From: Acidobacteriota bacterium
Lineage (GTDB): Bacteria > Acidobacteriota > Blastocatellia > Chloracidobacteriales > Chloracidobacteriaceae
Direction of reading: 5' to 3'
NCBI GenBank assembly: GCA_016208495.1
Contig: JACQXX010000070.1
Coordinates: 62,001-126,000, forward strand
Length of the DNA: 64,000 nt
Shown: one piece after another, positions 45,091 through 64,000 of the stretch
How the letters are laid out: each line of letters opens with the position of its first letter
Position numbering within the stretch: position 1 is the first letter of the stretch
Position numbers and translations under genes: made by a program
The notes under the pieces: model-generated
Databases searched by the model: none
Told to the model about the DNA's origin: nothing
The model's input: the letters and a program-made list of their open reading frames with translations, nothing else

Positions 45091-46002
45091 TTACGACTCG
45101 CTGACAATTGCCTGATAAGCGGCTTTTACTTTTGACAGATAGTATGGATCACCCCCGCCATTATATTTGGTGACAGCCACCCACCACGCTTTCCATCCAT
45201 TTAAGATCCATTCTCTGTGAGCTGGGCGAAACCATACGGTTTGCCCCTGCTGCAGGGTTGTGTTTTCAGATATTTTGCTGGTTTGGGTAATTTCTTCGAC
45301 CAGTGTTCGATTTCGTGCCGCAATTTTTGACAATGTATCCTTTTTTCGCACCGTATCTTGTCGAACCTCCTGACTATCAATAATCCTGGTATTTTCATAA
45401 ATCGCCGCATAGTGGAATACCAGTGCCACGCCGCCTCTGATGCACAATTCAGCATTCATTGGTTTTTTGAGCTCATTCCGCAATTCTGTTGAACTAATCA
45501 AGTGCGAATGCTCTGCTCCGTCACGGATGACGCTCAGGCCAGGATCACCTGAATTCCCAAATTGTATTGGCCGTGGTCCATAAAACGCCGGCGCCGGTTT
45601 CACTCCCGTATATCGTGATTGCCAGCTTGGCCCGCTACTTTCAACCCAGATCATGGCTTTGATGATTTTCCAATCCAACGGAATGAATGGCAACAGATCA
45701 TAATGTTTTGCCTGAAAGGTCTGGTTCATTTCAGCAACAATCTTTTGGATAATGCCGTCGTGTTTGTCCCATTCGGCTCTGATTTGCTGGTTGGAAGGCT
45801 TATCAGGTTTTTTGGGGAGATCGGCTCGTGTATTTCTTCCGACTGGGGACAGCGAAGCATTTTTTGATTCCTGAAATAAGTTGTTTGGGCTGGAATTCAA
45901 TCCGGTTGAATAGGCTGATTTAAATCCGCCGGGGCCACCACCACCATGTGGTGCGTTGGGAGCAATTTTGGGCTGTCGGGTACGAGTTCCTGAGTTGAGC
46001 AT
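45091..46002 (-). CDS. LysM protein with lysozyme-like region
   Basis: The 303-residue protein has a Gly/Ser-rich N-terminus without a signal peptide. A central lysozyme/transglycosylase-like region starts KIIKAMIWVESSG and continues with GPRPIQFGNSGDPGLSVIRDG. The Glu of WVESSG is a plausible catalytic acid. A LysM-type domain follows (RKKDTLSKIAARNRTLVEEI, ending LQQGQTVWFRP) and then a C-terminal helix rich in Trp and Tyr. Proteins of this form are seen among cell-wall hydrolases and as cargo of contractile or type VI systems. No such system is in this window. The assignment to a wall hydrolase is an inference from the two domains. Confidence 0.6.
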   Translation of the reverse strand: MLNSGTRTRQPKIAPNAPHGGGGPGGFKSAYSTGLNSSPNNLFQESKNASLSPVGRNTRADLPKKPDKPSNQQIRAEWDKHDGIIQKIVAEMNQTFQAKHYDLLPFIPLDWKIIKAMIWVESSGPSWQSRYTGVKPAPAFYGPRPIQFGNSGDPGLSVIRDGAEHSHLISSTELRNELKKPMNAELCIRGGVALVFHYAAIYENTRIIDSQEVRQDTVRKKDTLSKIAARNRTLVEEITQTSKISENTTLQQGQTVWFRPAHREWILNGWKAWWVAVTKYNGGGDPYYLSKVKAAYQAIVSES

Positions 46003-46550: not shown

Positions 46551-48341
46551 ATGCTGCTCAACAATCGGTATGAGGTTCTTAAGGAATTAAGTCAGGGAGC
46601 GTTTGGCAAAACCTTTCTGGCGGAGGACCGCAACAGCCCATCACGGCGCAAATGCGTGGTGAAACAGCTCAGACCAGATGGGAAATGTGATTTTCAGTTG
46701 GCGCGGGAACGCTTTGAACGCGAAGCTGCCGTCCTGGAACACTTAGCCGAAGAAAGCCGCCAGATACCGAATTTGTATGCCTACGTGGTTGAAGGCGGGC
46801 AGTTTTACCTGGTTCAGGAGTTTGTAGACGGTCCAACATTGGCGCAACTGGTTGAACGGCAAGGTCGTCTCTCAGAACCGGTTGTCCGTGAGATCATCAT
46901 CAAGTTGCTGGACGTGGTTGAGTACATTCACAGCCAGAACATCATTCATCGGGACATCAAACCAGACAACATCATCCTGCGCACCAGAGACAATCTTCCA
47001 GTCCTGCTTGATTTTGGAACTGTCAAAGAAGTCACGCGGCTGGATTCGGTTGGGAATCCAACCGGCTCAATGATTGGAGGAACAAGCGGGTTTATGCCGC
47101 TGGAGCAAGCAGCGGGAAGACCAATGTTTGTCAGTGATATTTTTGCTCTTGGGGTAACTGCCATTGCGCTTTTGACCGGGAAAAACCCAGGCAAAATGAC
47201 TGATCCTCGAACTGGAAATTTAAATTGGGAAACTCATGCTGGAAATATCAGTCACGAACTGGTTGAAATCCTCAATCGAAGCACCAAACAACTCCCTCAG
47301 GATCGGTATTTGGGTGCTAAAGAAATGCAATGGGCGCTCAATAGCCTGATTGTGCCAGTTGTCCGACCTGTAACTGCTCATACCGTACCAGCCAAATCTT
47401 TGCCAGAACCGACTGCACCTGCGACTCCACTGGTATCGCTGACGACTAAGACACTTCCACCACCAGTTTTAACACCGATGGTGGCATCCAAACCAATGAA
47501 GGAGCCATCACCCTCAAAACCGGTTACAACTCATATTCTGCCAAAACCCATTGCTGCTGCACCTGTTAGTTCACCGTTATCACCGACAATTGCAATACCA
47601 CCTTTAACACCGAAGGTAGCGGTTGAGCCGATTAAGAAACCACCACGTCAAGAACTGGCAGCTCTACCTCAGTTGATTAAAAATAATTTAGGAATGGAAT
47701 TTGTGTTAATCCCAGCCGGAGAGTTTCAGATGGGAGCAAAACAATTTGCACCTGAAAAACCGGTACATAAAGTGAAAATCAGCCAGCCGTTTTACCTGGG
47801 AAAATATCAGGTGACACAAGCGCAGTGGCAAGCGGTGATGGGAAGCAACCCGTCATATTTCAAAGGAGAAAACCTGCCGGTTGAAACGGTGTCGTGGGAC
47901 GATTGCCAGGATTTCATAAAGAAGTTAAATGGGAAAGGAGAAGGAGCCTACCGGTTGCCAACAGAGGCGGAATGGGAATATGCGTGTCGAGCAGGCACAA
48001 CGGGGGACTTTGGAGGGACAGGAAAGATGAAAGAAATGGGTTGGTATTCTGAAAATGCGGGAGGAAAAACCCATCCAGTGGGGAAGAAGAAACCAAACGA
48101 GTTTGGGGTATACGACATGCACGGGAACGTGTGGGAATGGTGTGAGGATTGGTATGGATTGTACCCGAGTGGGAACGTAACGGATCCGAAAGGTCCTGAC
48201 AGAGGCTCGCGCCGGGTGAATCGGGGCGGCGGTTGGAGGGGCACCGCTGTTGGCTGCCGGTCAGCGGCTCGCGGCGTCATCCTGCCCGGCTACCGCGCCA
48301 GCTACCTGGGCTTCCGTCTCGTGAGGATAGCGGATCGGTAA
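46551..48341 (+). CDS. Ser/Thr protein kinase fused to a C-terminal FGE-sulfatase/C-type-lectin variable domain (copy 1)
   Basis: The 596-residue protein has an N-terminal Hanks kinase domain: glycine loop LSQGAFGKTF, Lys38 in CVVKQL, IIHRDIKPDN with His133-Asp135, and Asp154 of DFG. A Pro-rich linker (about residues 265-375) follows. The C-terminal FGE-sulfatase-type domain starts GMEFVLIPAGEFQMG and holds YQVTQAQWQAVMGSNPSYF, RLPTEAEWEYACRAGT and DMHGNVWEWCEDWYG. The last part (48213-48326) is VR-like: a fixed framework RGG-W, CRSA-R and LGFRLVR with clustered differences from the paralogue at 57369. There is no membrane helix. The ATG at 46551 has CAAGGAG upstream; the frame to 46509 lacks support. 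The RodA-PBP gene follows 194 bp downstream. Confidence 0.93.
   Translation: MLLNNRYEVLKELSQGAFGKTFLAEDRNSPSRRKCVVKQLRPDGKCDFQLARERFEREAAVLEHLAEESRQIPNLYAYVVEGGQFYLVQEFVDGPTLAQLVERQGRLSEPVVREIIIKLLDVVEYIHSQNIIHRDIKPDNIILRTRDNLPVLLDFGTVKEVTRLDSVGNPTGSMIGGTSGFMPLEQAAGRPMFVSDIFALGVTAIALLTGKNPGKMTDPRTGNLNWETHAGNISHELVEILNRSTKQLPQDRYLGAKEMQWALNSLIVPVVRPVTAHTVPAKSLPEPTAPATPLVSLTTKTLPPPVLTPMVASKPMKEPSPSKPVTTHILPKPIAAAPVSSPLSPTIAIPPLTPKVAVEPIKKPPRQELAALPQLIKNNLGMEFVLIPAGEFQMGAKQFAPEKPVHKVKISQPFYLGKYQVTQAQWQAVMGSNPSYFKGENLPVETVSWDDCQDFIKKLNGKGEGAYRLPTEAEWEYACRAGTTGDFGGTGKMKEMGWYSENAGGKTHPVGKKKPNEFGVYDMHGNVWEWCEDWYGLYPSGNVTDPKGPDRGSRRVNRGGGWRGTAVGCRSAARGVILPGYRASYLGFRLVRIADR
48213..48326 (+). other. 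Putative DGR variable region (VR), copy 1
   Basis: The 38 codons have the frame RV-x-RGG-x-W ... CRSA-x-R ... PG-x-R ... LGFRLVR. Against copy 2 (58908-59021) the length is identical. Fifteen codons encode different residues: codons 3, 7, 9, 10, 13, 14, 19, 21-24, 27 and 29-31. Most of these keep C or T in the third position, as expected where the template codon is AAC/AAT. Eight further synonymous third-base changes also occur, so the two copies do not come from one identical template without later drift. Confidence 0.7.
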
Positions 48342-48535: not shown

Positions 48536-51500
48536 ATGGCCATTACTCGCAGCACCGCCGCAGACCGCACCCAAAGACAACTGAACCAGCATCCAGCCCC
48601 AGTTTTCATTCCCGTCAATCTTGTTCTTTCATTGATTGTTTCTCTCCTCTTTGGCTATGGAGCCTGGAAGGTCAAAGCTGTTCAGGAAGTGGAATACAAT
48701 TTCACTGATGTTTCGGCTACCCTCAAAGAACAGGAAAAGATCAAACCACAACGGCAGACTCCGGTGAACCTCAATGCGGTGACATCTTCCAAGGAAATCC
48801 TTCCGATTCTTGATTTTCTGGAAAGTGATAAAGACCGTGAATTTGCCGCCGGAATCATTTATGAATACACCCGGAACAACCGGCTGGCCAATGTCGGTCA
48901 GCTCGCAAAAGTTCGCTATCGGGAAAACGACCTGCCTCCAGACGCTCCGGAGTTTCGTCGCCGCTTTGATGAGGCGAAAAAGGCTGCCGATGAAGCCAAA
49001 CTCAAACGTGACGAAGCCGCAAAACAGCCGAAGCCGGTCAAATGGTACATTCGTCTTTTGGAAATCCTGGGTATTGTTTCGCCACGGGCTGAAGAAGTTG
49101 CGCCTCCAGAGCCAGAAGTTTCAGTTCGACTCTTATCTGACATTTCCCGGATCAAGGATGACGTCGTGGTCCGCGCTCCATGGCAATTTATCTCCGGCTA
49201 CTGGCAAATGATTGGTCTGTATCTGGTTAGTATGTATGTGACACAACTCTTTTGGTGGTGGAAAAAAGGCAACTCCGATGTCTGGTTGTTCCCGATTTTG
49301 CACACGCTGACCGGACTTGGGTTGCTGATGAGCGTCAGCTTGAAAGACCCACTCCGGGATCGAATGGAATTTGAAGGCTTTGCCCTGGGGATTGTGGCTG
49401 GGTGTATCGGAATCATAGCGGTTTCCTTCATTGACCTGGACAAATTTCGCCGATCAAAAACTGCTTCCTGGGGTTGGCTGGCTGTTGCCATAGGGTTGTC
49501 GGCAGCGCTGCTTTTGTTTGGACAAGGCCCGGAAGGAAGCCCGGATGTCAAAGTGAACCTGCTGGGATTCCAACCCGTCGAAGCCATCAAAATTGCCCTG
49601 GTGTTCTTTCTGGCCGGAATCTTCGGACGCAATTGGGAAAAACTCCGCGAATTGCAACACCGCACGTCCTTACTGCCCAGGGCATTGCGAGCGGTCAATA
49701 TTCCTCGAATCCAAGATTCACTCCCCGTGATGGCCGGAGTTGGGGTCGCCATGGTCTTTTTCTTCTTTCAAAAGGATTTAGGACCGGCACTGATTGTGTC
49801 ATGCACCTTTTTGACCCTGTATGCTGTCGCCCGTGGACGATCTGTTCTTTCGATATTCGGACTCGCGGTGATTGTGCTTGGATTTTGGGGAGGGTACAAA
49901 CTTGGCTCGCCTCCGACCGTGGTGGATCGGGTCAATATGATGCTCTCGCCGTTTGACAACTATGTGCGTGGCGGCGAACAGGTCGCCCATGCGCTCTGGG
50001 CTTTTTCCACGGGAGGATTGACCGGAAGTGGGGTGGGCTACGGTGACGCACGGGTGATCCCAGCCGGGTACACCGACTTGATTATTTCAGTGGTTGGTGA
50101 GCAGCTAGGATTTGCAGGTATTCTCATTGTTTATGGACTGTATGCGGTTTTGCTCTGGCGAGGTATCCGCATTGCCCTGACGGCGGCGGAAAAGTATGAC
50201 TTCTTTTTGGCGCTTGGGCTGACATTGCTCACTGCCTATCAAATCATTCTGATCTCAGGTGGTATTCTGGGTTTGATACCGCTTTCCGGGGTCGTGTCTC
50301 CGTTTTTGAGCCACGGGAAATCCTCGATGCTGGCCAATTGTGTCATCGTCGGATTGTTGTTGTTGATTTCGTCACGAACTGGAAAACCAGAAGACACCGA
50401 ACCTTTCCACCGACAAGCTGGTGTTGTGACATTGGTTCTGGGCATGGCATTGCTGGTTATTGTTGGGAAAGCCGCTTCTGTCCAGGTCATCAATGCGGAT
50501 GAAATCATGATCGCGGGAGCACTGGTTGTTCGGAGCGAACCCTACTCGGCGGATGAATTGGCTGACTACAAAGCTGAAGTTTACAAACACGAACTGGCCG
50601 CCGCCCGCAAAAAAGCCGGGTTGCCAGATACTTCCGCCACTGATGAAGACGATGCTGGTGACAAGAAAAATGAAGATTTTGAAGCCAAATTCAAAGATGA
50701 CTTTCTGCGAAAGTATGGATTTGGTTCGCGTGGTCGTCCCTATGCCAAACGCGACTATGTGTACAATCCACGCCTGACCAGCATTGCCCAGTTGGTGCCA
50801 CGGGGCGCGATTTATGACCGGAATGGGATTCCATTAGCAACCAGCAACTGGGAGGAAATCGAACGGAACCGAAAGAAATATCAAGAGTTAGGTGTTGCCG
50901 TAGACCATGTTTGCCAGCGAAGCGACCTGCGACATTATCCATTTGGTGATCTGCTGTTTCATTTGCTTGGAAACTGGCGAACCCGGACCAACTGGGCGGC
51001 TGCCAACACAGACTATATTGAAAAGGATTACAACGACCGGTTGCAGGGCTACAGCAGTTACCCCGAACGAATCCGTCGGTATGATTCGCGGATTGAAGCT
51101 CATGTTCCGATCACGCGCCAGGATTTTCACGACCTGATTGGTGTTTTACACCATCGCCACCAGCCTGACCATCCCGCGATGAAGGAGTTTTTAAACCGCA
51201 AGCGGGATGTGCGGATGTCAATTGATATTGGGTTGCAGCAAAAAGTCGCGGTAATTCTTCGGGAAGCCATTGCCAAAGACCAGAAGCTCAAGCGTGGTTC
51301 AGTGGTTGTGATGTCGCCGGAAACTGGTGAATTGCTGGCTTCGGTCGGGTATCCGTGGCCTGGTGAACTTAAGCCGATACAGACGCCAAAAAACGCCAGT
51401 GAGAAACGCCGTGAAGAGATTCGAGCGGAAAATCTGAAAAATCTGGGGGCGATGTTGATTGACCGGGCGCGATTTGGGACGTTCCCGCCGGGCTCGACCT

Positions 51501-52261
51501 TCAAGCTGGTGACGGCCATGGCCGCCATGCCCAATGATGAAAAGGCTGTTTTTCAATGTGTTCCTCTTGGAGATGGCCGGGTTGGGTTCAAAATTCCGGG
51601 CTGGGGAGATCCGACCCGTGATGATATCGGAGACAAGTCAGCCCACGGGTCGGTCAACCTGGAACGTGGAATGGTTGTGTCGTGCAATGCCTACTTTGCT
51701 CAACTCGGAGTTCGCATCGGAGCGCCACGGTTGTTTGACACGATGAGCAAATTCAACATCAGCGCCGGGAACCCAAATACGGCAGAGGAATTAGGCAAAA
51801 CCCTGCCACAATCAGCTTATGGGCAGGGAGAAATCACCGCTTCACCATTTCAAATGGCAAAAGTCGCATCCACCGTCGCCAACCATGGCAAGATGCCGTT
51901 TGGGAAATGGGTCATTGATGAAAGCAACCAGCGAACCGATGAGCCACGGGAAATTGTCCCGATGGCTTCGGCGCAACTGCTGGCACGGGCACTCCGCGGT
52001 GTTGTCACCGAAGGAACCGGAAAAGTTTTGGCAAACTCCTCAATCCTGATTGCTGGCAAGACGGGAACGGCGGAAGCTGGGCGCGGCAGAAAATCACATT
52101 CCTGGTTTGTCGGGTTTGCGCCTTTCGGCGAACCGCCAGCCCGTCAGATTGCTTTTAGCGTGTTGATCGAAAATAGCGGCTATGGCAGCAAATATGCCGC
52201 GCCAGTTGCCAAACAAGTCGTCGAAGTGGCTCGTGAGCGTCAGTACATTTCACAAGAATGA
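48536..52261 (+). CDS. SEDS (RodA/FtsW) glycosyltransferase fused to class B penicillin-binding protein
   Basis: One 1241-residue protein holds both enzymes of a cell-wall synthase pair. After an N-terminal membrane helix and an extracytoplasmic-looking charged region, the SEDS part spans about residues 225-620. It has many membrane segments and the conserved Asp (D514) in PAGYTDLIISVVGEQLGF; this Asp is required for glycan polymerisation in the family. A further membrane helix leads into the PBP2-type part, with RGAIYDRNGIPLATS. The transpeptidase motifs are intact: SxxK at Ser987 (PPGSTFKL), SxN at Ser1049 (VVSCNAYF) and KTG at Lys1175 (AGKTGTAEAG). RodA and PbpA are separate proteins in nearly all bacteria. 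The next kinase gene lies 39 bp downstream. Confidence 0.93.
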   Translation: MAITRSTAADRTQRQLNQHPAPVFIPVNLVLSLIVSLLFGYGAWKVKAVQEVEYNFTDVSATLKEQEKIKPQRQTPVNLNAVTSSKEILPILDFLESDKDREFAAGIIYEYTRNNRLANVGQLAKVRYRENDLPPDAPEFRRRFDEAKKAADEAKLKRDEAAKQPKPVKWYIRLLEILGIVSPRAEEVAPPEPEVSVRLLSDISRIKDDVVVRAPWQFISGYWQMIGLYLVSMYVTQLFWWWKKGNSDVWLFPILHTLTGLGLLMSVSLKDPLRDRMEFEGFALGIVAGCIGIIAVSFIDLDKFRRSKTASWGWLAVAIGLSAALLLFGQGPEGSPDVKVNLLGFQPVEAIKIALVFFLAGIFGRNWEKLRELQHRTSLLPRALRAVNIPRIQDSLPVMAGVGVAMVFFFFQKDLGPALIVSCTFLTLYAVARGRSVLSIFGLAVIVLGFWGGYKLGSPPTVVDRVNMMLSPFDNYVRGGEQVAHALWAFSTGGLTGSGVGYGDARVIPAGYTDLIISVVGEQLGFAGILIVYGLYAVLLWRGIRIALTAAEKYDFFLALGLTLLTAYQIILISGGILGLIPLSGVVSPFLSHGKSSMLANCVIVGLLLLISSRTGKPEDTEPFHRQAGVVTLVLGMALLVIVGKAASVQVINADEIMIAGALVVRSEPYSADELADYKAEVYKHELAAARKKAGLPDTSATDEDDAGDKKNEDFEAKFKDDFLRKYGFGSRGRPYAKRDYVYNPRLTSIAQLVPRGAIYDRNGIPLATSNWEEIERNRKKYQELGVAVDHVCQRSDLRHYPFGDLLFHLLGNWRTRTNWAAANTDYIEKDYNDRLQGYSSYPERIRRYDSRIEAHVPITRQDFHDLIGVLHHRHQPDHPAMKEFLNRKRDVRMSIDIGLQQKVAVILREAIAKDQKLKRGSVVVMSPETGELLASVGYPWPGELKPIQTPKNASEKRREEIRAENLKNLGAMLIDRARFGTFPPGSTFKLVTAMAAMPNDEKAVFQCVPLGDGRVGFKIPGWGDPTRDDIGDKSAHGSVNLERGMVVSCNAYFAQLGVRIGAPRLFDTMSKFNISAGNPNTAEELGKTLPQSAYGQGEITASPFQMAKVASTVANHGKMPFGKWVIDESNQRTDEPREIVPMASAQLLARALRGVVTEGTGKVLANSSILIAGKTGTAEAGRGRKSHSWFVGFAPFGEPPARQIAFSVLIENSGYGSKYAAPVAKQVVEVARERQYISQE

Positions 52262-52300: not shown

Positions 52301-53545
52301 ATGGTTACTATGCTCCTAAAAAATCGGTACAAAGTAATCAGTCGGCTTGGGGTCGGTGGGTTTGGGGAAACCTTTTTAGCTGAAGACACCGATTTACCTT
52401 CGCGGCGCCGGTGTGTGATCAAGCGATTGAAGCCTGTGGAGGGCATGCTTTTAGAAGAGGCGCAGCGGCTTTTTGCTCAGGAAGCACAAATCTTGGAAGA
52501 ATTGGGAAAAGGATCCCAGGGCCGGGTGCCGGAACTTTATGCGTATTTTAATGAAGGGGAGGATTTTTACCTGGCGATGGAATATGTTAACGGCATCGCT
52601 CTGGACAGAAAGGTAAGCCAAACTGGGCCTTTGGATGAATCGGAAGTCTGGGGGCGGATTTTGCGGGCATTATTGATGACATTGGAATATGTCCACGCCC
52701 GAAAAGTAATTCATCGAGATATTAAGCCAGCCAACATCATTATTCGGAATGACGGCACTCCGGTGTTGATTGACTATGGAATTGTGAAACGACAGTTGAC
52801 AACGCTGGCCGGCGGTCAGCAGGCATACGCCCAATCAAGAAGCACGACGGGAACCGAAGGCTACACACCAGATGAACAATGGAAAGGAAAAGCGATCTAT
52901 GCCAGCGATTTGTATGCGCTTGGGATGACCGCTATTTTCGCACTCACCGGTAAATCCCCAACCGAACTGCACGATCTTGAGACAGGAGAATTTGTGTGGC
53001 GTCGATACGCTCCACGGGTAAGCGCCCAACTGGCAGGTGTCTTAGATAAAGTGGTGAGGGAAAACTATCGAGAACGATATGCCACAGCTTCCGAAATGCG
53101 CTTAGCTTTGGACCAGGCTCGCCCGGAAGATGAGCGAACTGTCCAACGTCCCATAGTCGCCAATTCAGCGCTGTCACCACGTGTGAAAGATGCTCAAGCC
53201 ACCAATGAGGTAAAGACATTCCGAATTGCCAAACCTCCAGCACCGTTGTCAGGTTCACTTGAGTCACCCAAAAGCCAGCCCATCCAGCTCTTTGCCGCTT
53301 TTGATGAGGACATATCCAACGAATCAGGTGGAAGTTCGGTCCTGCGTCCAGTTTTTTTGATTGTATCCCTTTTGTTTGCTCTGTTAGGGAGCTGGCAATT
53401 TTTCGGGTTTCAACATACCAAAGAAGAAAATACACATTTTTGGGTTGCGATTGGATTGTTTTTGATTTCGTTTGGCTGTGCCTGGCTTTTTTTCTTTCTG
53501 AGTATCAGAAAGAAAGATTCAGAGAAACCAAACACTCTGGTTTAG
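52301..53545 (+). CDS. Membrane-anchored Ser/Thr protein kinase, PknA/PknB-like
   Basis: A 414-residue kinase. The glycine loop is LGVGGFGETFLAED, the lysine is in CVIKRL, and the catalytic loop is VIHRDIKPANIII. The metal-binding motif reads DYG in VLIDYGIVKRQ (D158) in place of DFG; this substitution is tolerated in some active kinases. After a linker from about residue 275, two hydrophobic segments end the protein (VFLIVSLLFALLGSWQFF and FWVAIGLFLISFGCAWLFFFL), so the kinase faces the cytoplasm with only a short outer loop. The start may be the ATG at 52301 or the one at 52310 (MLLKNRYKV), which aligns better with its paralogues. Confidence 0.93.
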   Translation: MVTMLLKNRYKVISRLGVGGFGETFLAEDTDLPSRRRCVIKRLKPVEGMLLEEAQRLFAQEAQILEELGKGSQGRVPELYAYFNEGEDFYLAMEYVNGIALDRKVSQTGPLDESEVWGRILRALLMTLEYVHARKVIHRDIKPANIIIRNDGTPVLIDYGIVKRQLTTLAGGQQAYAQSRSTTGTEGYTPDEQWKGKAIYASDLYALGMTAIFALTGKSPTELHDLETGEFVWRRYAPRVSAQLAGVLDKVVRENYRERYATASEMRLALDQARPEDERTVQRPIVANSALSPRVKDAQATNEVKTFRIAKPPAPLSGSLESPKSQPIQLFAAFDEDISNESGGSSVLRPVFLIVSLLFALLGSWQFFGFQHTKEENTHFWVAIGLFLISFGCAWLFFFLSIRKKDSEKPNTLV

Positions 53546-53679: not shown

Positions 53680-54450
53680 ATGGGTATTTTTGATAAACTA
53701 TTTGGAGGCAGACACCGCCAGCCACTCGAAATCCTGGACGATATTTTATACGAAGTTGAGTCCTACATTCAGCCCATTGGCAATGGACACAAGATATTTC
53801 CCCATCCTGTGATTCAGGTTCAACTGGCGGCAGCGGATGATGCCCACTGGGCCGTTCTGCAAGCTGCCTTTATCCAGGAAAAGCGTCTGGAGACTTCGAT
53901 CAAGCAACGCTTGCAAAAATCAGGGTGTGACACCACCCAACTCCAGGTATTGGTCGCTCGGGCGGCACCAGATACGGCTGAGATTGGTCGGAACGGGTAT
54001 GTGATTGAGTTATCGGCAACCCCACAGGTGATAGCAAAAACCGGAAGACTTGGCCCCCAGGTTCCCCCCGCCAGACTTGAGGTAATGGATGGTACGGCTG
54101 GTGTCTCGGCTTCAGATATTACCAAATCTCCATTTTTCATTGGACGCACTCCCGAAGTCAAAGATACCGCTGGGCGGATTATTCGGAGAAACGATCTGGC
54201 GTTTGAAGATGATGGGACGCATATAAACAAAACAGTCAGTCGTGAGCATGCCCGGATTGTCTATGTATCAAGCGAAGATCACTTTCGGCTCTGTGATGAG
54301 GGAAGTAGTAAGAGAACCAGCATTTTCCGGAACAATCAAACCATCCAGGTGATTGCCAATGACCCACGGGGTGTGGCACTCCACAATGGGGACGAAATCT
54401 ACTTTGGACGGGCACGAGTCAAATTCAGTATCCTTGAAGAAACCGCATAG
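53680..54450 (+). CDS. FHA domain protein, FhaA-like
   Basis: A 256-residue cytoplasmic protein. The N-terminal 120 residues (MGIFDKLFGGRHRQPLEIL and on) look like the DUF3662 type of N-terminal domain found on FhaA. The C-terminal FHA domain starts SPFFIGRTPEVKD and has SREHARIVY. FHA domains bind phosphothreonine peptides, so it is a probable substrate reader for the kinases beside it. The loop usually NGT reads GSSKRTSIF here, so the phosphopeptide contact may be altered. GTGAGG before the ATG serves as the ribosome binding site. Confidence 0.85.
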   Translation: MGIFDKLFGGRHRQPLEILDDILYEVESYIQPIGNGHKIFPHPVIQVQLAAADDAHWAVLQAAFIQEKRLETSIKQRLQKSGCDTTQLQVLVARAAPDTAEIGRNGYVIELSATPQVIAKTGRLGPQVPPARLEVMDGTAGVSASDITKSPFFIGRTPEVKDTAGRIIRRNDLAFEDDGTHINKTVSREHARIVYVSSEDHFRLCDEGSSKRTSIFRNNQTIQVIANDPRGVALHNGDEIYFGRARVKFSILEETA

Positions 54451-54547: not shown

Positions 54548-55483
54548 ATGCCCGAGCGAGCAACTGGACGTGATATCGTTTTTGAGATTCTGAAAAATAT
54601 GCGTGAGAGTGCCGAACCCCTCACCCGCGATGTTCTGGTCCCAGGGATTTATAACGTTTACCTTCATATTGAAGACCATACCCGGCTGGCCGCGATTCAA
54701 GGAGATATCGCCACCGATGCCAAACAGGCGTTGGAAAATGAAATCGACCGGTCAAACCAGTTGCAAACGCCAAAGCCGCTTGACCGATTGAAGGGGATGT
54801 TTCGAGGCGGGACTGACAAATTAGGGGAAACGCTCCCGTATCGCAAACCGGTCAGTGGCTGGCAAATCATTTTTCACATCGCCACCGAGGCCGAGTTTCT
54901 CCCAGGTGAAATCGAAATCCACTCACAGTTTGCCCACAATGTAAAAACCAATCGTGGTGGCCAGGAGACCGTCATGACTGAAATGCGCCAGGGAACAGGG
55001 ACTACCCGGACTGCTATGTCTCCGAAAAGCCGCCAACCGGTTGGTCCTGCGCTGGCTGAAGAACAAACTCATGTCCGAGATGGTGGCAGCGTCCCGTTTG
55101 CGCAATCTGGTGTCCGCCCATTTGCAGTTCTTCGATATGAGAGCAAAACTGGGCCGAAGGTGCTTTCAATTCGCAAAGACGATATTGTAATTGGTCGCGG
55201 CGGTCCGAATTGCTGGGTTGATTTCCGGATTATTGCCCCGTTTGAAGCGGATACCAAAATGGTATCGAGCGAGCATATCCGGCTGAGGCGTGACCCAACG
55301 ACAGGCAAGTTCTTTATCAAAGACACCAGTTCAAATGGAACGACCGTCAATGGACAACGAATCCCACCAAGTTTAGATAATGGAACCCCCCGACGGGATC
55401 GCAATGTCGAAGTTCCGCTTCCTGAGAGTTGCCGAATTGGGCTGGCGGATGTCGTTTTTCTGGAGTTTGAGGTGTGTCAATGA
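54548..55483 (+). CDS. FHA domain protein with N-terminal DUF3662-like region
   Basis: A 311-residue protein. The N-terminal region (about residues 1-140) is alpha/beta and resembles the N-terminal domain of the preceding gene's product. A disordered linker follows. The FHA domain starts about residue 205: KVLSIRKDDIVIGRGG, then SSEHIRLRRD and DTSSNGTTVNGQRI, the full canonical phosphothreonine-binding set. It overlaps the phosphatase ATG by 4 bp (ATGA), so translation is coupled. It probably recruits kinase substrates, as FhaA/FhaB do in mycobacteria. Confidence 0.88.
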   Translation: MPERATGRDIVFEILKNMRESAEPLTRDVLVPGIYNVYLHIEDHTRLAAIQGDIATDAKQALENEIDRSNQLQTPKPLDRLKGMFRGGTDKLGETLPYRKPVSGWQIIFHIATEAEFLPGEIEIHSQFAHNVKTNRGGQETVMTEMRQGTGTTRTAMSPKSRQPVGPALAEEQTHVRDGGSVPFAQSGVRPFAVLRYESKTGPKVLSIRKDDIVIGRGGPNCWVDFRIIAPFEADTKMVSSEHIRLRRDPTTGKFFIKDTSSNGTTVNGQRIPPSLDNGTPRRDRNVEVPLPESCRIGLADVVFLEFEVCQ

Positions 55484-57060
55484 CCCTAAGTCCCCCTGCG
55501 CTCAATTCAGGTATCCGTCCGGTTGCCTCCGCTGGGGCGACGGACCCCGGCTTGATTCGTGCCAACAACGAAGATCGATTTGGATCCACCCCTGATGCCG
55601 GGTACTTTTTTGTGGTTGATGGGGTTGGCGGCCAGGCTGCCGGAGAGATTGCCGCCCAGATTGCCGCTGATTCCCTTTCGGCTCGATTACACCGCCGGGT
55701 CGGTACGCCTGAACGACGAGTCCGCGAAGCGATCACGATTGCCAACAACAACATCTTTGCCCGTGCCAGTGAAAACCCGGAATGGTCAGGGATGGCCTGT
55801 GTGTTGACGGTTGCGGTACTGGAGCAAGAGCGGTTGACGATTGGGCAAGTCGGAGACACGCGGTTGTACCTGATCACGGCTGATGAGCAAACTCAAACCA
55901 CCACTATTCACAAAGTAACGCACGATCATTCGCCGGTGGGTGAACTTGAAGACGCCGGAGACCTCACTGAGCAGGATGCCATGCTCCATCCGGATCGGAA
56001 CCAGGTCAACCGGCAGGTCGGCATTGAGGACCATACTCCAGATGACGAGGCATTCATTGAAATCACGGAAATTGTGTTTCCTCCGTCAAGTGCGCTGGTT
56101 TTGTGTAGTGATGGGTTGAGTGATGTGGTGACCTCCGATCAAATTCGAAGTTGTGTCCAGGAATCGGCTGGAAACCCGCACGAAACAGCACTGGCTCTCA
56201 TTACCGCCGCCAATGCCGAAGGCGGCAAGGACAACATCACCGTCGTGGTGGTCGAAGGCGAAAGCTTTTCCAAAGCGGTGCGATCTCAGGTGATACCTCT
56301 AACTGAAGTGTTGCCGCTCTCACCACCGGTTCCGAAACGGCCTCGCCGGTTTTCCATTCCAGGCTGGTTGCTGTTTGTCTTTGGTGTTGTGGTTGGAATT
56401 GCACTTTCAACTGTTTTTTGGAAACGATTTCCAGTGGAGTTGCCGCCAAAGCCGATTTCCAAACCAGTTCCCGTGTCAAAGATTCTTCTGGTTGGTCCAG
56501 ATCGTCAATTTGCCACAATTTCAGAAGCACTCCTGGTTGCCCGCGCTGGCGATACGATTTCCGTTGCTCCAGGCGAATATCGTGAGCAAGTTAAACTCAA
56601 GAATGGAGTTACAGTCATTTCGGAAGAATTTGGAAAAGCAGTGATTCTCCCTACGACAACTCCCGGTGCGGCGGTGATTGCCGAACAGGTTTCCAATGCA
56701 CGCTTTGCGGGATTCAAAATCCTGGGCGAAGAAACAACCCCGCTGGCAGTCGGATTGTTTATCAACGGTGGGTCACTTGAGGTTGAAGATCTTGAAATTT
56801 CACAAACCAGGCAATCTGCGATTGAAATGACCGGCAATGTTTCTTCCGTATTGCGGGCGAATTATCTGCATGACAATGCCGGAAACGGGATTGTGGTGCG
56901 GGGTCCGGCGGCTGTACCACGCCTGATCGGCAACATTATTGTGACAGTTGGACGTGACACGCCAGCACGAAAGACCGGAATTGTGATTCTGGACGGTGCT
57001 GCTCCTCGTGACGAACGAAACCTCGTGACACCTGTACTCATTATGAAGGATGAGTTATGA
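55480..57060 (+). CDS. PP2C-type protein phosphatase with membrane helix and outer beta-helix-like domain
   Basis: This 526-residue protein starts at the ATG (55480) that overlaps the FHA stop, with GAGG 8 bp upstream. The PP2C domain (about residues 10-260) keeps all metal-binding motifs: GLIRANNEDRFG, FFVVDGVGGQAAGE, VLCSDGLSDVV and GGKDNITVV. One membrane helix follows (PGWLLFVFGVVVGIALSTVFW). The last 190 residues, from VGPDRQFATISEALLVARAGDTISV, look like a right-handed parallel beta-helix (pectin-lyase-like) and would lie outside the membrane. It should reverse the action of the kinases in the cluster. PstP of actinobacteria has a simple outer tail instead. Confidence 0.93.
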   Translation: MTLSPPALNSGIRPVASAGATDPGLIRANNEDRFGSTPDAGYFFVVDGVGGQAAGEIAAQIAADSLSARLHRRVGTPERRVREAITIANNNIFARASENPEWSGMACVLTVAVLEQERLTIGQVGDTRLYLITADEQTQTTTIHKVTHDHSPVGELEDAGDLTEQDAMLHPDRNQVNRQVGIEDHTPDDEAFIEITEIVFPPSSALVLCSDGLSDVVTSDQIRSCVQESAGNPHETALALITAANAEGGKDNITVVVVEGESFSKAVRSQVIPLTEVLPLSPPVPKRPRRFSIPGWLLFVFGVVVGIALSTVFWKRFPVELPPKPISKPVPVSKILLVGPDRQFATISEALLVARAGDTISVAPGEYREQVKLKNGVTVISEEFGKAVILPTTTPGAAVIAEQVSNARFAGFKILGEETTPLAVGLFINGGSLEVEDLEISQTRQSAIEMTGNVSSVLRANYLHDNAGNGIVVRGPAAVPRLIGNIIVTVGRDTPARKTGIVILDGAAPRDERNLVTPVLIMKDEL

Positions 57061-57368: not shown

Positions 57369-59033
57369 ATGTTGCCAAAATTGCTGAGCAATCGGTATCT
57401 GTTGATTGAGAAATTGGGTTCAGGTGCTTTTGGGGAAACTTTTTTGGCGGAAGATACCCAGAGTCCATCACAGCGAAGGTGCGTTGTGAAGCGGTTGAAT
57501 CCAACGGGAGCGTGCGATTTTCAACTGGCCAAAGAACGGTTTGACCGGGAAGCTGTGGTACTGGAATCTCTTGGCGAAAAAAACCGACAGATTCCACGGT
57601 TGTATGCCCATATTGTGGAAAACAACGAGTTTTATCTGGTTCAAGAACTGATCGAAGGACCTACGCTAACGCAAAAGCTCGCGAGTCAAGGCCCCTTGTC
57701 CGAAGCGGCGGTGCGTGGAATTTTGGTGGGACTCCTGCCGGTATTGGAGTTTATCCACAGCCAGGACATCATCCATCGAGACATCAAGCCGGACAACATC
57801 ATTCTGCGAACGAAAGATACTCTTCCAGTATTGATAGACTTCGGCGTTGTCAAGGAAGTCACTCAGTTGGATGCATTTGGGAATCCAACCAGTTCAGTTC
57901 TGGCGGGAACCCCGGTGTTTATGCCGCTGGAGCAGGCGGCAGGACATCCGATGTATAGCAGCGATTTGTATGCCTTGGGAATGACCGCCATTCAGTTGCT
58001 AACTGGAAAAAGATTGAGCGAGATGCAAGATCGTCGGAAAGGAACCCTGAATTGGAGACCTCATGCCACAGGTATCAGCCTGGAATTGAGTGAAGTCTTA
58101 AATCGGGCGACGGAGAGGTATCCTCAAGACCGTTATGAAACCGCATCGGAAATGCTCACGGCACTGGATCAACCGCGGTTTCAATTAGATCAACGTCGAG
58201 TTGAACCGGTGGTGATTCCACCGCCACCGGTTATCGTGACTCCCAATCCAGAAAACCCGATTTTGGGTGGGATGAGAAAGTTATTCGAGGGATTTAGTCG
58301 AAAATCAGGACCGCCACCGCCGCCACCAAAACGAGTTGAACCGCAACCACGGGTTCAGCTTCCCAGTGAATTCAAGAACAGTCTGGGGATAGAATTTGTG
58401 TTGATTCCAGCCGGAGAATTCCAAATGGGATCAACCCAGTTTGGTGATGAAAAGCCAGTGCATAAAGTGAAGATCTGCCAGCCGTTTTACCTGGGAAAAT
58501 ATCAGGTGACACAAGCGCAGTGGCAAGCGGTGATGGGAAGCAATCCGTCATATTTTAAGGGAGAAGACCTGCCAGTGGAAAATGTGTCATGGGACAAGGT
58601 GCAAAGGTTTATCAAGGCGCTGAATGGGAGAGGGGATGGACCCTACCAGTTGCCGACAGAGGCGCAATGGGAATACGCGTGTCGAGCGGGGACGACAGGA
58701 GATTATGCGGGAAATTTGGATGAAATGTGTTGGTATGAGGGTAATTCAGAAAGTAAAACTCACCCAGTAGGTCAAAAGAAACCAAATGGATGGGGGCTGT
58801 ACGACATGCACGGGAACGTGTGGGAATGGTGTCAAGACTGGTATGACAACGGATACTCCGCGAAGAGCGCTGGGAGCGATCCGAAAGGTCCCAGTGATGG
58901 CTCGGCCCGGGTGTATCGGGGCGGCAGTTGGTTCTACACCGCCATCTACTGTCGGTCGGCGAATCGTGCCCGCAACACGCCGGGCACCCGCAACAACGAC
59001 CTGGGTTTCCGCCTTGTGAGGACGGCTCGGTAA
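57369..59033 (+). CDS. Ser/Thr protein kinase fused to a C-terminal FGE-sulfatase/C-type-lectin variable domain (copy 2)
   Basis: A 554-residue paralogue of the protein at 46551. The kinase part has GSGAFGETF, Lys41, IIHRDIKPDN (His136-Asp138) and DFG (Asp157). Here the Pro-rich linker is shorter, about residues 285-335. The FGE part matches copy 1 closely, with YQVTQAQWQAVMGSNPSYF identical and QLPTEAQWEYACRAGT similar; it ends in a VR-like segment RV-x-RGG-x-W, CRSA-x-R, LGFRLVR. No membrane helix is present. It is preceded by GGAGACGATGAC. An FGE-type lectin fold attached to a kinase points to a variable ligand-binding input to phosphorylation signalling. Confidence 0.93.
   Translation: MLPKLLSNRYLLIEKLGSGAFGETFLAEDTQSPSQRRCVVKRLNPTGACDFQLAKERFDREAVVLESLGEKNRQIPRLYAHIVENNEFYLVQELIEGPTLTQKLASQGPLSEAAVRGILVGLLPVLEFIHSQDIIHRDIKPDNIILRTKDTLPVLIDFGVVKEVTQLDAFGNPTSSVLAGTPVFMPLEQAAGHPMYSSDLYALGMTAIQLLTGKRLSEMQDRRKGTLNWRPHATGISLELSEVLNRATERYPQDRYETASEMLTALDQPRFQLDQRRVEPVVIPPPPVIVTPNPENPILGGMRKLFEGFSRKSGPPPPPPKRVEPQPRVQLPSEFKNSLGIEFVLIPAGEFQMGSTQFGDEKPVHKVKICQPFYLGKYQVTQAQWQAVMGSNPSYFKGEDLPVENVSWDKVQRFIKALNGRGDGPYQLPTEAQWEYACRAGTTGDYAGNLDEMCWYEGNSESKTHPVGQKKPNGWGLYDMHGNVWEWCQDWYDNGYSAKSAGSDPKGPSDGSARVYRGGSWFYTAIYCRSANRARNTPGTRNNDLGFRLVRTAR
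58908..59021 (+). other. Putative DGR variable region (VR), copy 2
   Basis: It has 38 codons of the same layout as copy 1. Most of the positions that differ from copy 1 are of the form NNC or NNT here (TAT, AGT, TTC, TAC, ATC, TAC, AAT, GCC, CGC, AAC, ACC, AAC, AAC, GAC), and AAC itself is retained at several. A framework such as RGGSW and CRSANR with AAC-like variable codons is known from DGR targets in cyanobacteria and other bacteria. No template repeat was found in the window. Confidence 0.72.
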
Positions 59034-60247: not shown

Positions 60248-63200
60248 TTATCTCCAGCCTGATAGGGTTCGACGGCTGTTTTCGAATTGTTGCTGGAGAT
60301 TCGCCTGAAATTCCTCAAGTTCACGCCGTTTTCGACTGATGGCCCACCCTGAGCCAAACAACACCGCTCCAACAACCGCCAGATACACCGCGTAGTGAAT
60401 CTGTCCCCACGGCACGCTGTGCAGCGTTACCACTGTCAAATGAAAGATTGCCGTGGCCAATCCGAGCAAGACCGGCGCCCGAAGCTGCAACAGGATTCCA
60501 ACCACGATCATTCCTAGCGCCACCGTGTCAAGACCGATGTCAATCCACAGGGATGACTGTTGCGCTACAAACCGCAGATGCAGGGCATGCAGCAACATTG
60601 GACCGCACAAAAGCAGACTCCCTTGCCAGATGCAGAACAGATTGAGTTGTTCGTTTTCGTCGCTTCGACGCAGACCCAGATAGCCGACCAGTAACAGCGC
60701 GGCCCCAATCGGCAAGCTGAATACTTCGATGTCTCTGAACAACCCATAGCCCAAAAACAACCCCATCCGAACATAGAACAGCCCTCCCAGCAGGTAACTC
60801 GCCGGGGCATAGAATTTTCGCCAGGCTGTTCCACGGGTGATGATGCTGATCAATGTCGTTGCGAGCAATCCGAGCATCAACGCCACCAGCAAATATTGCT
60901 CATCGCGACGAATATCCGGTAGCCAGACCAGCGCCTGTCCCACCAGCCCCGCCAGCGAGACCAGACTGATGAAATGGCCGATGTGCTCAAGCGGGTTGGC
61001 CAAAACGTGGGATGTTTCACGGTTGCGGTTCAGACGTGGCAGGAGCTGAAGGCTCAGCACCAGCAACAGGAATCCAAGGAACAGGTAGGCGGCTGGGAAA
61101 TAGGCTGGCTTGATTCCTAAATAATTGAGCACCACCGCCCAGGTTGACGAAAGCGACACCCCCAACCCGATCTTGTGGTACCAGGTCGTTTGTGAACTCA
61201 ACACCCATCCGGCCCAGATAACGGTAATCAGCGTGAAAGTGAGTAACTCAGCTTCTTTGGCCGGGAATGATTCCACCACGGCCATTGGGAGAATGAAAAA
61301 GTTGACGACCAGCACCGGGAAGGCACACAGGTCATTGGTCAATCGGGCGGCTTTTGCCCACCGTTCGTCTTCCGTCCAGCTTTGAGAAGCAGCTACCCGC
61401 GCAAATCCATGCTGGACAAGCAGCCAGAGCGCAATCAATGGCATTTCCCATCGCTGATTTTTCAATGGCAAGTAATCAATCAACGCCGCATAGCCGAACG
61501 CAATCAGACCCATTCCGCCGATTAAATGCACGATGCCCAGGTGTCTCTGGCGAATCCAGTGCCCGCAAATCAACAGCAGGCCGGCGAGTTCTATCGTCAG
61601 AAGGACGCTTGGCCAGATCAGGTAAAATGGATGTGAGCGGTTTGGCCAGGTGTAAAACAGCATTTCCAGCCCTACTGCCAGGACCACATAACTGACTGCC
61701 CAGAGTGTTTGACCAATGATTCGCTGCCGAACGGCTTTGGTCTGATATTCAGGCAAACCGTTGGCGACCAGAACTTCCTGCTCTGTGGCTTTTCGGAATC
61801 GGTCAAGTGCAGCCCAGAGCAGTATATATCCTGCCGTTGCCCAAATGATGGTTTGTGGAAGGTAGCTCCAGCGATCAGGAAATTTGAGGAAAGAAACTGC
61901 GTGCCACCACGACCCAAGCAACGACATCCAGGCCGTCAGGCACAACCACCCAAGTTCCACTTCCGTTTTCACCATCCGCGAAGTCACCAGCGTCAGGGTC
62001 GCCAGTTCAACTCCGAGGCCAATCGCCGCCATTCGTGGTGAAAACAACATCGCATACCCGACCAGAACGGCTGACCCAAGCGCCACAAGCTGGGCGACCC
62101 AGGTCAGTTCGGTTACATAATGAACTGGTGAAAGTGGGTGAAGTTCTTTGTCTTCTTCGAGTTGTGGTTCACGATGAAAGCGAATGGCGCATCCGGCAAG
62201 GCCAAACCCGGCGAGCATCCACAAGGCAGTTCGCAGGTCATTTGAAAAGTGCAGCCGATTCTGAACACCAATCACAGCCGTGCAAAAACTTCCGGTCAGC
62301 GCCACGCCAATTCCCAACCCAATCCAGCTTTGAATCAATCGAGTTTGAGCCGTGATCACCCAGGCCGCAATCCAGGCCCCAATTGCCAGGAAGGCGATTG
62401 ACCCATAAAAGGGTTGATCCCACATCAGATGATCGGCAATCAACAGCGCTTTGAAGGCAAACAGACATTCCCAAACACAGAGTGAGCCTCGGAGCCATTC
62501 GGTTGCTGTTTCAAGCCGATCTTCCCAGGCTTCCAGGTCAGGTTCAATCAGCCAGCGTCCACAGCGCGGCACCACAAACAACCCGGTGGTTGGCAGTGCC
62601 AGCAACATCACGACCAGCCCAGGAATGGTGACGATGGTTGGCCAGGCCATCCGCAAAGCGGCCAGCCCTGAAAGGCTCATCAAAAACGCAGTGCTGGTGC
62701 CAAAGAGGATGCCAATGCGCAGAAATGCTTCAGATTGACTGGCCCAGCGTGTCCCAATCGCAAAAAAAGTGGTTAAGACCAGCGCCGTCAGCGCAAACCA
62801 GAGCGCATCAAGTGGTGTGCGGAACCAGCCTTGAACCAGACTGAAATCCTCGGTGAAAAAGGCATGCAAGATGGGGAAGAGTGGCGAAACTGTGGTCAGT
62901 ACGGCCAGAACCCAGGCGGCCTGATGGTTTGGCTCAGTCAGAATTCGCAGCCGTTGGTTTGACGAGAAAATGACTTCGGTTCGTGAAGCGAGCAGGAGCC
63001 CCAGGGCGCATAACGCGAAAGTGAGCAGCGTGATGACAAACGGAGCGTGAAACCAGATGAGTTCGTTGACGGCAACCGTGAGGAGTAACCCAGTCGAAAG
63101 ATAGCTCCAGGCAGAGTTTTGCCGGGTGTAGGCGGTCATTCCATAGAGCGCGGTGCCGACGAGCGTGACCCCAATCAAGGCTGGATGTGAAATCGTCCCA

Positions 63201-64000
63201 ACCAGATTGCCAGCCACCGCATTGAGTGCCGCCAGCACTTCGAACGGAAGCCAGCGGAACAATCCGGTATAGACAAACAATCCTGCCGCCAGGATCAGGT
63301 GACCTGAAATGAAAAACGGTTTTTGGACTTCACGAGCAAAATCTTGATCTGACTCAAGTTGGGGGAGTTTTTGTTCCAACACGAGCAGCCCGCCAGCAAA
63401 AAGAACCGTGACGGCGGCATAGACATCAGGCGGAGCGTGAACCACCGCGCCCAAAAATCCATACACACTGGCCAGCAAGGCTGGAATTGCCAGATACAGC
63501 ATCAGTGTTTCGCGGAGCACCATCGCCGTTGTCGCATACAGCACCGCGCACAGGAGTCCCACCATCCAGGCCCGGTTGCCACGGGCAATCAATCCAGAAT
63601 GCACCAGAAACCATGGATTGGCGGGTACTAAAAGCGACCCAAGCAGCAGCAAACCGCGTCCGGCGAGTTCTTCCTGGGTTCGGCGCAAGAGCCACACGCC
63701 CGCGCCAAACGTGGCCATCGTCAGGAGTGCCAGCAAGCCCGCCTGAACCACAGGTCGTTGTAATTGCAGGCTAATGACGTCGCGCAAGTAAATAATCGTC
63801 CCGATCACAAACATCATAGCGCCGCTATAGACCATCCAGCGGAGCATTTGCGGGTCAGACAGCCGTTCCAGCAAACTGACTTCGGGAACTGGTTCGGGTT
63901 GTGGAATTGGGCGAGGTGGAACTGGGTAGGCTGTCTTTGGTGGCTCAGCGGAGGTGCTTTTCGGAGGAGTTTCACTAAGTTTGGCTGCAAATTGCTCGGC
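60248..64000 (-). CDS. Very large polytopic membrane protein, 5' end outside window
   Basis: The frame is open to the window edge, so the gene is partial: at least 1250 codons lie in the window. The only possible start inside is a TTG at 63874 (LLERLSDP); the 42 codons before it form a Pro-rich linker (KTAYPVPPRPIPQPEPVPE) that should be part of the protein. Nearly the whole sequence from MLRWMVYSGAMMFVIGTII on is hydrophobic, with roughly 30 or more membrane segments and no recognisable catalytic motif. I do not recognise a named family with confidence. A cytoplasmic N-terminal domain presumably lies beyond the window. Confidence 0.8.
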   Translation of the reverse strand, partial: AEQFAAKLSETPPKSTSAEPPKTAYPVPPRPIPQPEPVPEVSLLERLSDPQMLRWMVYSGAMMFVIGTIIYLRDVISLQLQRPVVQAGLLALLTMATFGAGVWLLRRTQEELAGRGLLLLGSLLVPANPWFLVHSGLIARGNRAWMVGLLCAVLYATTAMVLRETLMLYLAIPALLASVYGFLGAVVHAPPDVYAAVTVLFAGGLLVLEQKLPQLESDQDFAREVQKPFFISGHLILAAGLFVYTGLFRWLPFEVLAALNAVAGNLVGTISHPALIGVTLVGTALYGMTAYTRQNSAWSYLSTGLLLTVAVNELIWFHAPFVITLLTFALCALGLLLASRTEVIFSSNQRLRILTEPNHQAAWVLAVLTTVSPLFPILHAFFTEDFSLVQGWFRTPLDALWFALTALVLTTFFAIGTRWASQSEAFLRIGILFGTSTAFLMSLSGLAALRMAWPTIVTIPGLVVMLLALPTTGLFVVPRCGRWLIEPDLEAWEDRLETATEWLRGSLCVWECLFAFKALLIADHLMWDQPFYGSIAFLAIGAWIAAWVITAQTRLIQSWIGLGIGVALTGSFCTAVIGVQNRLHFSNDLRTALWMLAGFGLAGCAIRFHREPQLEEDKELHPLSPVHYVTELTWVAQLVALGSAVLVGYAMLFSPRMAAIGLGVELATLTLVTSRMVKTEVELGWLCLTAWMSLLGSWWHAVSFLKFPDRWSYLPQTIIWATAGYILLWAALDRFRKATEQEVLVANGLPEYQTKAVRQRIIGQTLWAVSYVVLAVGLEMLFYTWPNRSHPFYLIWPSVLLTIELAGLLLICGHWIRQRHLGIVHLIGGMGLIAFGYAALIDYLPLKNQRWEMPLIALWLLVQHGFARVAASQSWTEDERWAKAARLTNDLCAFPVLVVNFFILPMAVVESFPAKEAELLTFTLITVIWAGWVLSSQTTWYHKIGLGVSLSSTWAVVLNYLGIKPAYFPAAYLFLGFLLLVLSLQLLPRLNRNRETSHVLANPLEHIGHFISLVSLAGLVGQALVWLPDIRRDEQYLLVALMLGLLATTLISIITRGTAWRKFYAPASYLLGGLFYVRMGLFLGYGLFRDIEVFSLPIGAALLLVGYLGLRRSDENEQLNLFCIWQGSLLLCGPMLLHALHLRFVAQQSSLWIDIGLDTVALGMIVVGILLQLRAPVLLGLATAIFHLTVVTLHSVPWGQIHYAVYLAVVGAVLFGSGWAISRKRRELEEFQANLQQQFENSRRTLSGWR

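Follow-up and report, generated by a model that had tools for sequence, protein, structure and literature searches.

A shape, elongation, division and sporulation (SEDS) polymerase and a class B penicillin-binding protein (PBP), ordinarily a two-protein team that builds and cross-links the bacterial cell wall, are encoded as one polypeptide with intact active-site residues by a gene of an Acidobacteriota bacterium. The gene lies in a 64,000-nucleotide stretch of contig JACQXX010000070.1 (positions 62,001 to 126,000), referred to here as the window; coordinates given without a locus name are positions in it. We consider it likely that the product is a dedicated extra peptidoglycan synthase, with a RodA-like SEDS part and a PbpA-like transpeptidase in one chain, probably phospho-gated and derived from a locus of the actinobacterial type.

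The frame runs from ATG to stop over 1241 residues and holds two Pfam domains: PF01098 (FTSW_RODA_SPOVE; residues 251–614, E = 2e-47, 162 bits against a cut-off of 26.4) and PF00905 (Transpeptidase; residues 921–1229, E = 7.7e-39). An earlier interpretation made from the DNA letters (the sequence-only reading) had claimed that one 1241-residue frame holds both enzymes, that no stop or frameshift separates them and that D514, S987, S1049 and K1175 are active-site residues. All of this was borne out: there is no internal stop, the frame is also open in all 80 related loci described below, and D514, S987 with K990, S1049-C1050-N1051 and K1175-T1176-G1177 are unchanged across all aligned fusions (n = 11). 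Chance or a faulty assembly falls far short of explaining an open frame in all 80 loci, and an assembly or frameshift artefact is ruled out as the source of the fusion. The further claim, that stoichiometry is fixed at 1:1, applies to the fused chain alone.

The fusion and its parts

48536..52261, + strand: SEDS–class B PBP fusion gene, single open frame from ATG to stop, 1241 residues
48536..48553, + strand: codons 1–6, motif MAITRS, predicted to be cytosolic (family consensus M-A-V-T-R-S)
48596..48670, + strand: first transmembrane helix, residues ~21–45, from hydropathy (helix 25–53 in the model)
48671..49198, + strand: N-terminal extracytoplasmic helical domain, residues ~46–221, predicted with good confidence
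49286..50377, + strand: SEDS glycosyltransferase domain, residues 251–614 (PF01098; solved RodA/FtsW structures matched by sequence)
50075..50077, + strand: codon of the catalytic Asp D514, invariant in 11 fusions and aligned with the TD of T. thermophilus RodA
50378..50416, + strand: short predicted cytosolic linker from SEDS to PBP, residues 615–627 (alignment, hydropathy)
50417..50485, + strand: PBP transmembrane anchor, residues ~628–650 (hydropathy peak 628–646; helix in the model)
50534..50758, + strand: charged insertion of ~70 residues, residues ~667–741 (alignment columns ~707–790; pLDDT 59–87)
50759..51295, + strand: short PBP pedestal, residues 742–920 (RGAIYDRNG at 756–764; class B PBP fold from model residue ~710 on)
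51296..52222, + strand: transpeptidase domain, residues 921–1229 (PF00905; VIA-align Z of 44.5 to P. aeruginosa PBP3)
51494..51496, + strand: codon of S987, the SxxK serine nucleophile, invariant
51680..51688, + strand: codons of S1049-C1050-N1051, the SxN motif, invariant
52058..52066, + strand: codons of K1175-T1176-G1177, the KTG motif, invariant

The segment around D514 (ipagyTDliisvvgeqlgf) aligns with the catalytic loop of T. thermophilus RodA (ipfrhTDfvfsvwaeewgf), and D514 is the aspartate of the large extracellular loop that marks a SEDS polymerase. The other half has the SxxK, SxN and KTG motifs, the N-terminal transmembrane anchor and the RGxIxDRxG pedestal motif of a class B PBP; the PBP_dimer match in Pfam is a sub-cutoff fragment (residues 754–770). 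By sequence, the best match in the PDB is M. tuberculosis PbpA.

Structure prediction, proposed as a check in the sequence-only reading, gave a confident model. The AlphaFold2 model of residues 42–1241, computed from an input alignment of 70 sequences, has a predicted local distance difference test score (pLDDT) of 90.4 and a predicted template modelling score (pTM) of 0.85, and its PBP half matches class B PBPs (Z of about 41–44, with a maximum of 44.5 over 363 residues at 2.6 Å). Hydropathy and the model together suggest the chain order cytosolic tail, transmembrane helix, extracytoplasmic domain (46–221), transmembrane helix, SEDS, cytosolic linker (615–627), transmembrane helix, and extracytoplasmic pedestal and transpeptidase. 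Within the N-terminal domain L92 is invariant and R101, K207, V212 and R213 are nearly so. This domain gave no Pfam match over the cut-off and no confident Foldseek match in the PDB with a query model that included the membrane helices.

In the mechanism that we propose, the SEDS part would polymerize lipid II via D514, the chain would cross the membrane once more so that the transpeptidase lies outside, and S987 would cross-link the new strand. Both enzyme activities, and substrate channelling, would be expected of such a chain, which would keep polymerase and cross-linker permanently paired, with no exchange with the housekeeping FtsW/FtsI and RodA/PBP2. Engineered RodA–PBP2 fusions with the domain order of the window fusion work both in vivo and in vitro (PMC6207328; PMC10449877).

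It is unlikely that the chain is cleaved or reinitiated internally to give a separate SEDS protein and PBP working as an ordinary pair. A minor fraction of a synthetic E. coli fusion is indeed cleaved (PMC6207328), and the insertion at residues ~667–741, unusual in its charge and modelled with lower confidence, might be taken for a processing site; it lies, however, between the PBP membrane helix and the pedestal, so that a cut would free a soluble PBP, and among the 11 fusions it is present in the window protein only. No Shine–Dalgarno-like sequence was found before start-type codons in codons 600–770, which argues against reinitiation, and the fusion is kept unbroken in all 80 loci.

Distribution and origin

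When named species genomes were scanned with an alignment, 235 relatives were found, the best 80 of which were kept; a single-sequence scan of genome contigs detected no relatives. SEDS and transpeptidase share one open frame in 80/80 of these, so that the survey suggested in the sequence-only reading shows the fusion to recur. The 80 are almost all from Acidobacteriota (Bryobacterales/Terriglobia, Acidobacteriaceae, gp6, Thermoanaerobaculia and others). Two metagenome-assembled genomes, from Opitutaceae and Rhodothermaceae, fall inside or beside acidobacterial sequences in the trees, placements for which transfer or mis-binning may be responsible. Ten others of a phylum sample of 396 genomes hold frames of fusion size, or parts of such frames; identity across the main segments is 43–47% in eight and about 33% in the remaining two, G216 and G465. 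The overlong frames (834 and 992 residues) around canonical SEDS genes in G465 were rejected as fusions, being separate genes in GC-rich DNA. The distribution is patchy, since only 4/25 genomes within one class of holders have the fusion. A phage origin was also considered and rejected: the best phage matches listed cover a partial transpeptidase only, and there was no viral fold match.

In the SEDS tree, the fusions except that of Rhodococcus form a group (support 95) that adjoins the RodA of the actinobacterial cluster and stands apart from the FtsW and RodA both of E. coli and of the window's own genome. Placement of the window SEDS with canonical RodA/FtsW was rejected (approximately unbiased test, p-AU = 2.4e-6) and a single clade of acidobacterial and Rhodococcus fusions was disfavoured (p-AU = 0.013), in topology tests based on quickly computed trees, some branches of which are long.

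The genome of the window keeps unfused genes of both kinds, as a check proposed in the sequence-only reading revealed: mrdA–mrdB follow mreB-like and mreC/D-position genes, and ftsI and ftsW lie within a dcw cluster. Canonical SEDS genes are likewise present in all seven other fusion-bearing genomes examined. These genes bear on the idea that the fusion is the main elongation synthase, a resident RodA–PBP2 pair merged into one gene. Its architecture is like that of the functional synthetic fusions, and RodA and PBP2 models do match it, but its scores are far under the NCBIfam equivalog cut-offs for RodA (TIGR02210, 127.6 against 336.7), FtsW (TIGR02614, 173.4 against 337.5) and PBP2/MrdA (TIGR03423, 165.2 against 455). 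The gene order is also the reverse of that in mrdA–mrdB. Descent from the resident pair is rejected because that pair is kept separate and because of the tree placement (p-AU = 2.4e-6), and the idea as a whole is quite improbable. Nor does the fusion derive from the genome's ftsI and ftsW. The sequence-only reading is supported as regards a SEDS protein with a class B PBP in one chain, with the refinement that the fused genes are not the resident mrdA–mrdB.

Gene content, gene order and SEDS phylogeny tie the fusion to the actinobacterial fhaA–fhaB–pstP–rodA–pbpA–pknA–pknB locus. The rodA and pbpA of a locus of this type (fhaA–fhaB–pstP–rodA–pbpA–pknAB) would have been joined and the product would then have spread within Acidobacteriota.

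Two further sets of genes were observed in the window's own genome. One is a lone 520-residue SEDS gene without a neighbouring PBP (L073 9511–11073, G000:C10), which also occurs in a genome of the same family (L079 7266–8828) and has similar frames of 530–590 residues across the class. The other lies downstream of the canonical mrdA–mrdB, about 4.5 kb away (L072 13287–17002, G000:C3), and encodes a PP2C/kinase-like protein, a forkhead-associated (FHA) protein and a kinase.

Gene neighbourhood and putative phospho-control

46551..48341, + strand: Ser/Thr kinase–FGE-sulfatase fusion, upstream neighbour (Pkinase 5e-33, FGE-sulfatase 1e-47; HRDIKPDN and DFG)
52301..53545, + strand: Ser/Thr kinase, next gene downstream, with two C-terminal hydrophobic segments (Pkinase 9.5e-30; HRDIKPAN and DYG)
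53680..54450, + strand: FHA protein 1, FHA1 of the conserved operon (Pfam FHA 3e-8)
54548..55483, + strand: FHA protein 2, FhaA-like (Pfam FHA 3e-10)
55474..57060, + strand: PP2C phosphatase, PstP-like, with one transmembrane helix (297–315) and a beta-helix C-terminal domain (PP2C 8e-15, DUF1565 3e-8)
57369..59033, + strand: second kinase–FGE-sulfatase fusion (Pfam)

The genes of the cluster are all on the + strand, in the order kinase–FGE, fusion, kinase, FHA1, FHA2, PP2C, kinase–FGE. Most relatives with enough flanking DNA have the operon FHA2–PP2C–Ser/Thr kinase–fusion–FHA1, and the window cluster is a rearranged version of this conserved operon with extra kinases. Occallatibacter savannae (L146) is a cultured relative that carries the operon. 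The window FHA1 is 32–36% identical to FHA1 proteins beside fusions elsewhere, and in the relative locus L066 the FhaA_N domain of FHA2 scores over its cut-off (28.1 bits against 25).

The neighbouring kinase, phosphatase and phosphopeptide-binding genes probably control the fusion. The Ser/Thr kinases, the PP2C phosphatase and the two FHA proteins would gate it, possibly via phosphorylation of Thr4 in the N-terminal motif. This residue is conserved in 50/53 aligned sequences and Ser6 in 45/54, and the tail behind the motif is mostly variable; because kinase, phosphatase and FHA genes adjoin the fusion, Thr4 is the obvious candidate phosphosite. We advance more tentatively, as a possibility that we somewhat doubt, that the fusion is a widespread third peptidoglycan synthase of Acidobacteriota, acting in addition to the divisome and the Rod system, a single chain switched by N-terminal Thr phosphorylation that the operon FHA proteins read. 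It is highly improbable that one or both activities are lost in practice and that the fusion mainly serves the kinase–phosphatase–FHA system as a regulatory or sensory receptor, as the signalling operon, the extra extracytoplasmic domain and the presence of housekeeping synthases might suggest, since the catalytic residues of both domains are all invariant and a pure scaffold would not need them.

Several observations weigh against a phospho-gated extra synthase of actinobacterial type. The fusion was not seen in the other 161 genomes searched of the window's class, and is therefore dispensable there. In the transpeptidase tree a grouping with PbpA has a support of 0 and is neither shown nor rejected, and FhaA_N in the window FHA2 is below its cut-off (19.1 bits against 25, E = 0.0018). 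PASTA domains are absent from the three kinases of the window and from the scanned kinases of L063, L069 and L070. The case for Thr4 as a phosphosite consists of its conservation, and the M-A-V-T-R-S motif is missing from the G216 and G465 fusions and from the Spirosoma fusion described below.

Other features of the neighbourhood were also recorded. Kinase–FGE-sulfatase genes, whose second domain is formylglycine-generating-enzyme-like, stand on both sides of the fusion cluster, and the FGE domain does not occur in the scanned operon kinases of the relatives. The right-handed beta-helix/DUF1565 domain that follows the PP2C membrane helix, present in the window and in L063 (5150–6868), is possibly a sensor of envelope glycan. 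A divergent LysM protein (45091–46002, − strand) lies beside the synthase cluster, and its middle (IKAMIWVESSG) resembles a lytic transglycosylase or muramidase. An open reading frame (ORF) of 1208 residues at 60248–63874 (− strand) has no Pfam match.

Comparison with known systems

The coupling of SEDS proteins to PBPs is an active question that has so far been approached through two-chain complexes or engineered fusions. The acidobacterial family supplies many natural single-chain synthases whose active sites are intact and which have a presumed kinase, phosphatase and phospho-readers alongside, and it makes the coupling and phospho-control of a SEDS–PBP unit directly testable. The fusion also offers an explanation for the presence, in some Acidobacteriota, of a SEDS gene additional to ftsW and rodA. 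In a literature search limited to open-licence papers, neither the acidobacterial family nor its operon was found described; a SEDS–PBP fusion as such has already been mentioned, for Rhodococcus.

The RodA–PBP2 and FtsW–FtsI complexes (PDB entries 6pl5, 8tj3 and 8bh1) contain the same two enzymatic modules with, by prediction, the same topology. They consist of two chains, however, and in mrdA–mrdB the PBP gene precedes the SEDS gene.

The Rhodococcus mention, a natural SEDS–PBP fusion ORF, stands in a passage of an earlier paper that cites the RHA1 genome (PMC10449877). We located a 941-residue fusion on plasmid pRWAY03 of Rhodococcus sp. WAY2 (L161 6495–9320). Like the acidobacterial protein it is a single ORF in which a class B PBP comes after SEDS, but it lies outside any kinase/FHA/PP2C cluster and its SEDS part groups with RodA-type sequences. 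It is apparently independent of the acidobacterial lineage, because a single clade of the two was disfavoured. A plasmid of Spirosoma oryzicola (L160, Bacteroidota) has a 1323-residue fusion in an operon that resembles the acidobacterial one (FHA–PP2C–kinase–kinase–fusion–FHA). That fusion differs in its long branch, distant sequence, lack of MAVTRS and weak CarboxypepD_reg match in the N-terminal part. NCBI names both the Spirosoma and the Rhodococcus proteins 'FtsW/RodA/SpoVE family cell cycle protein'.

A further close likeness is to the fhaA–fhaB–pstP–rodA–pbpA–pknA–pknB locus (the PknB operon of M. tuberculosis). This locus is conserved in Actinobacteria and is under phospho-control, with pstP co-transcribed with rodA and pbpA, and with fhaA and fhaB encoding phosphothreonine recognition proteins (PMC6554272). 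Tsukamurella (L162) has it unfused as FHA–FHA–PP2C–RodA–PbpA–kinase–PASTA kinase, and PP2C–RodA–PbpA–kinase–kinase also occurs in Nocardia and Nonomuraea; in all three, a 4-nt overlap joins rodA and pbpA, which lie between the PP2C gene and two kinase genes. FHA, PP2C, SEDS, class B PBP and Ser/Thr kinase genes are linked in the window too. The two systems have the same kinds of gene, they agree in the order of PP2C, SEDS and PBP, and their SEDS parts group together; an FhaA_N domain is found over the cut-off in the FHA2 of L066 and scores below it in that of the window. The acidobacterial version differs in having FHA1 after the fusion and an extra N-terminal domain in it, and the PASTA kinase of the actinobacterial locus has no counterpart among the acidobacterial kinases scanned. 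In the actinobacterial locus rodA and pbpA are two genes; the window and each of the 80 related loci have a single fused gene.

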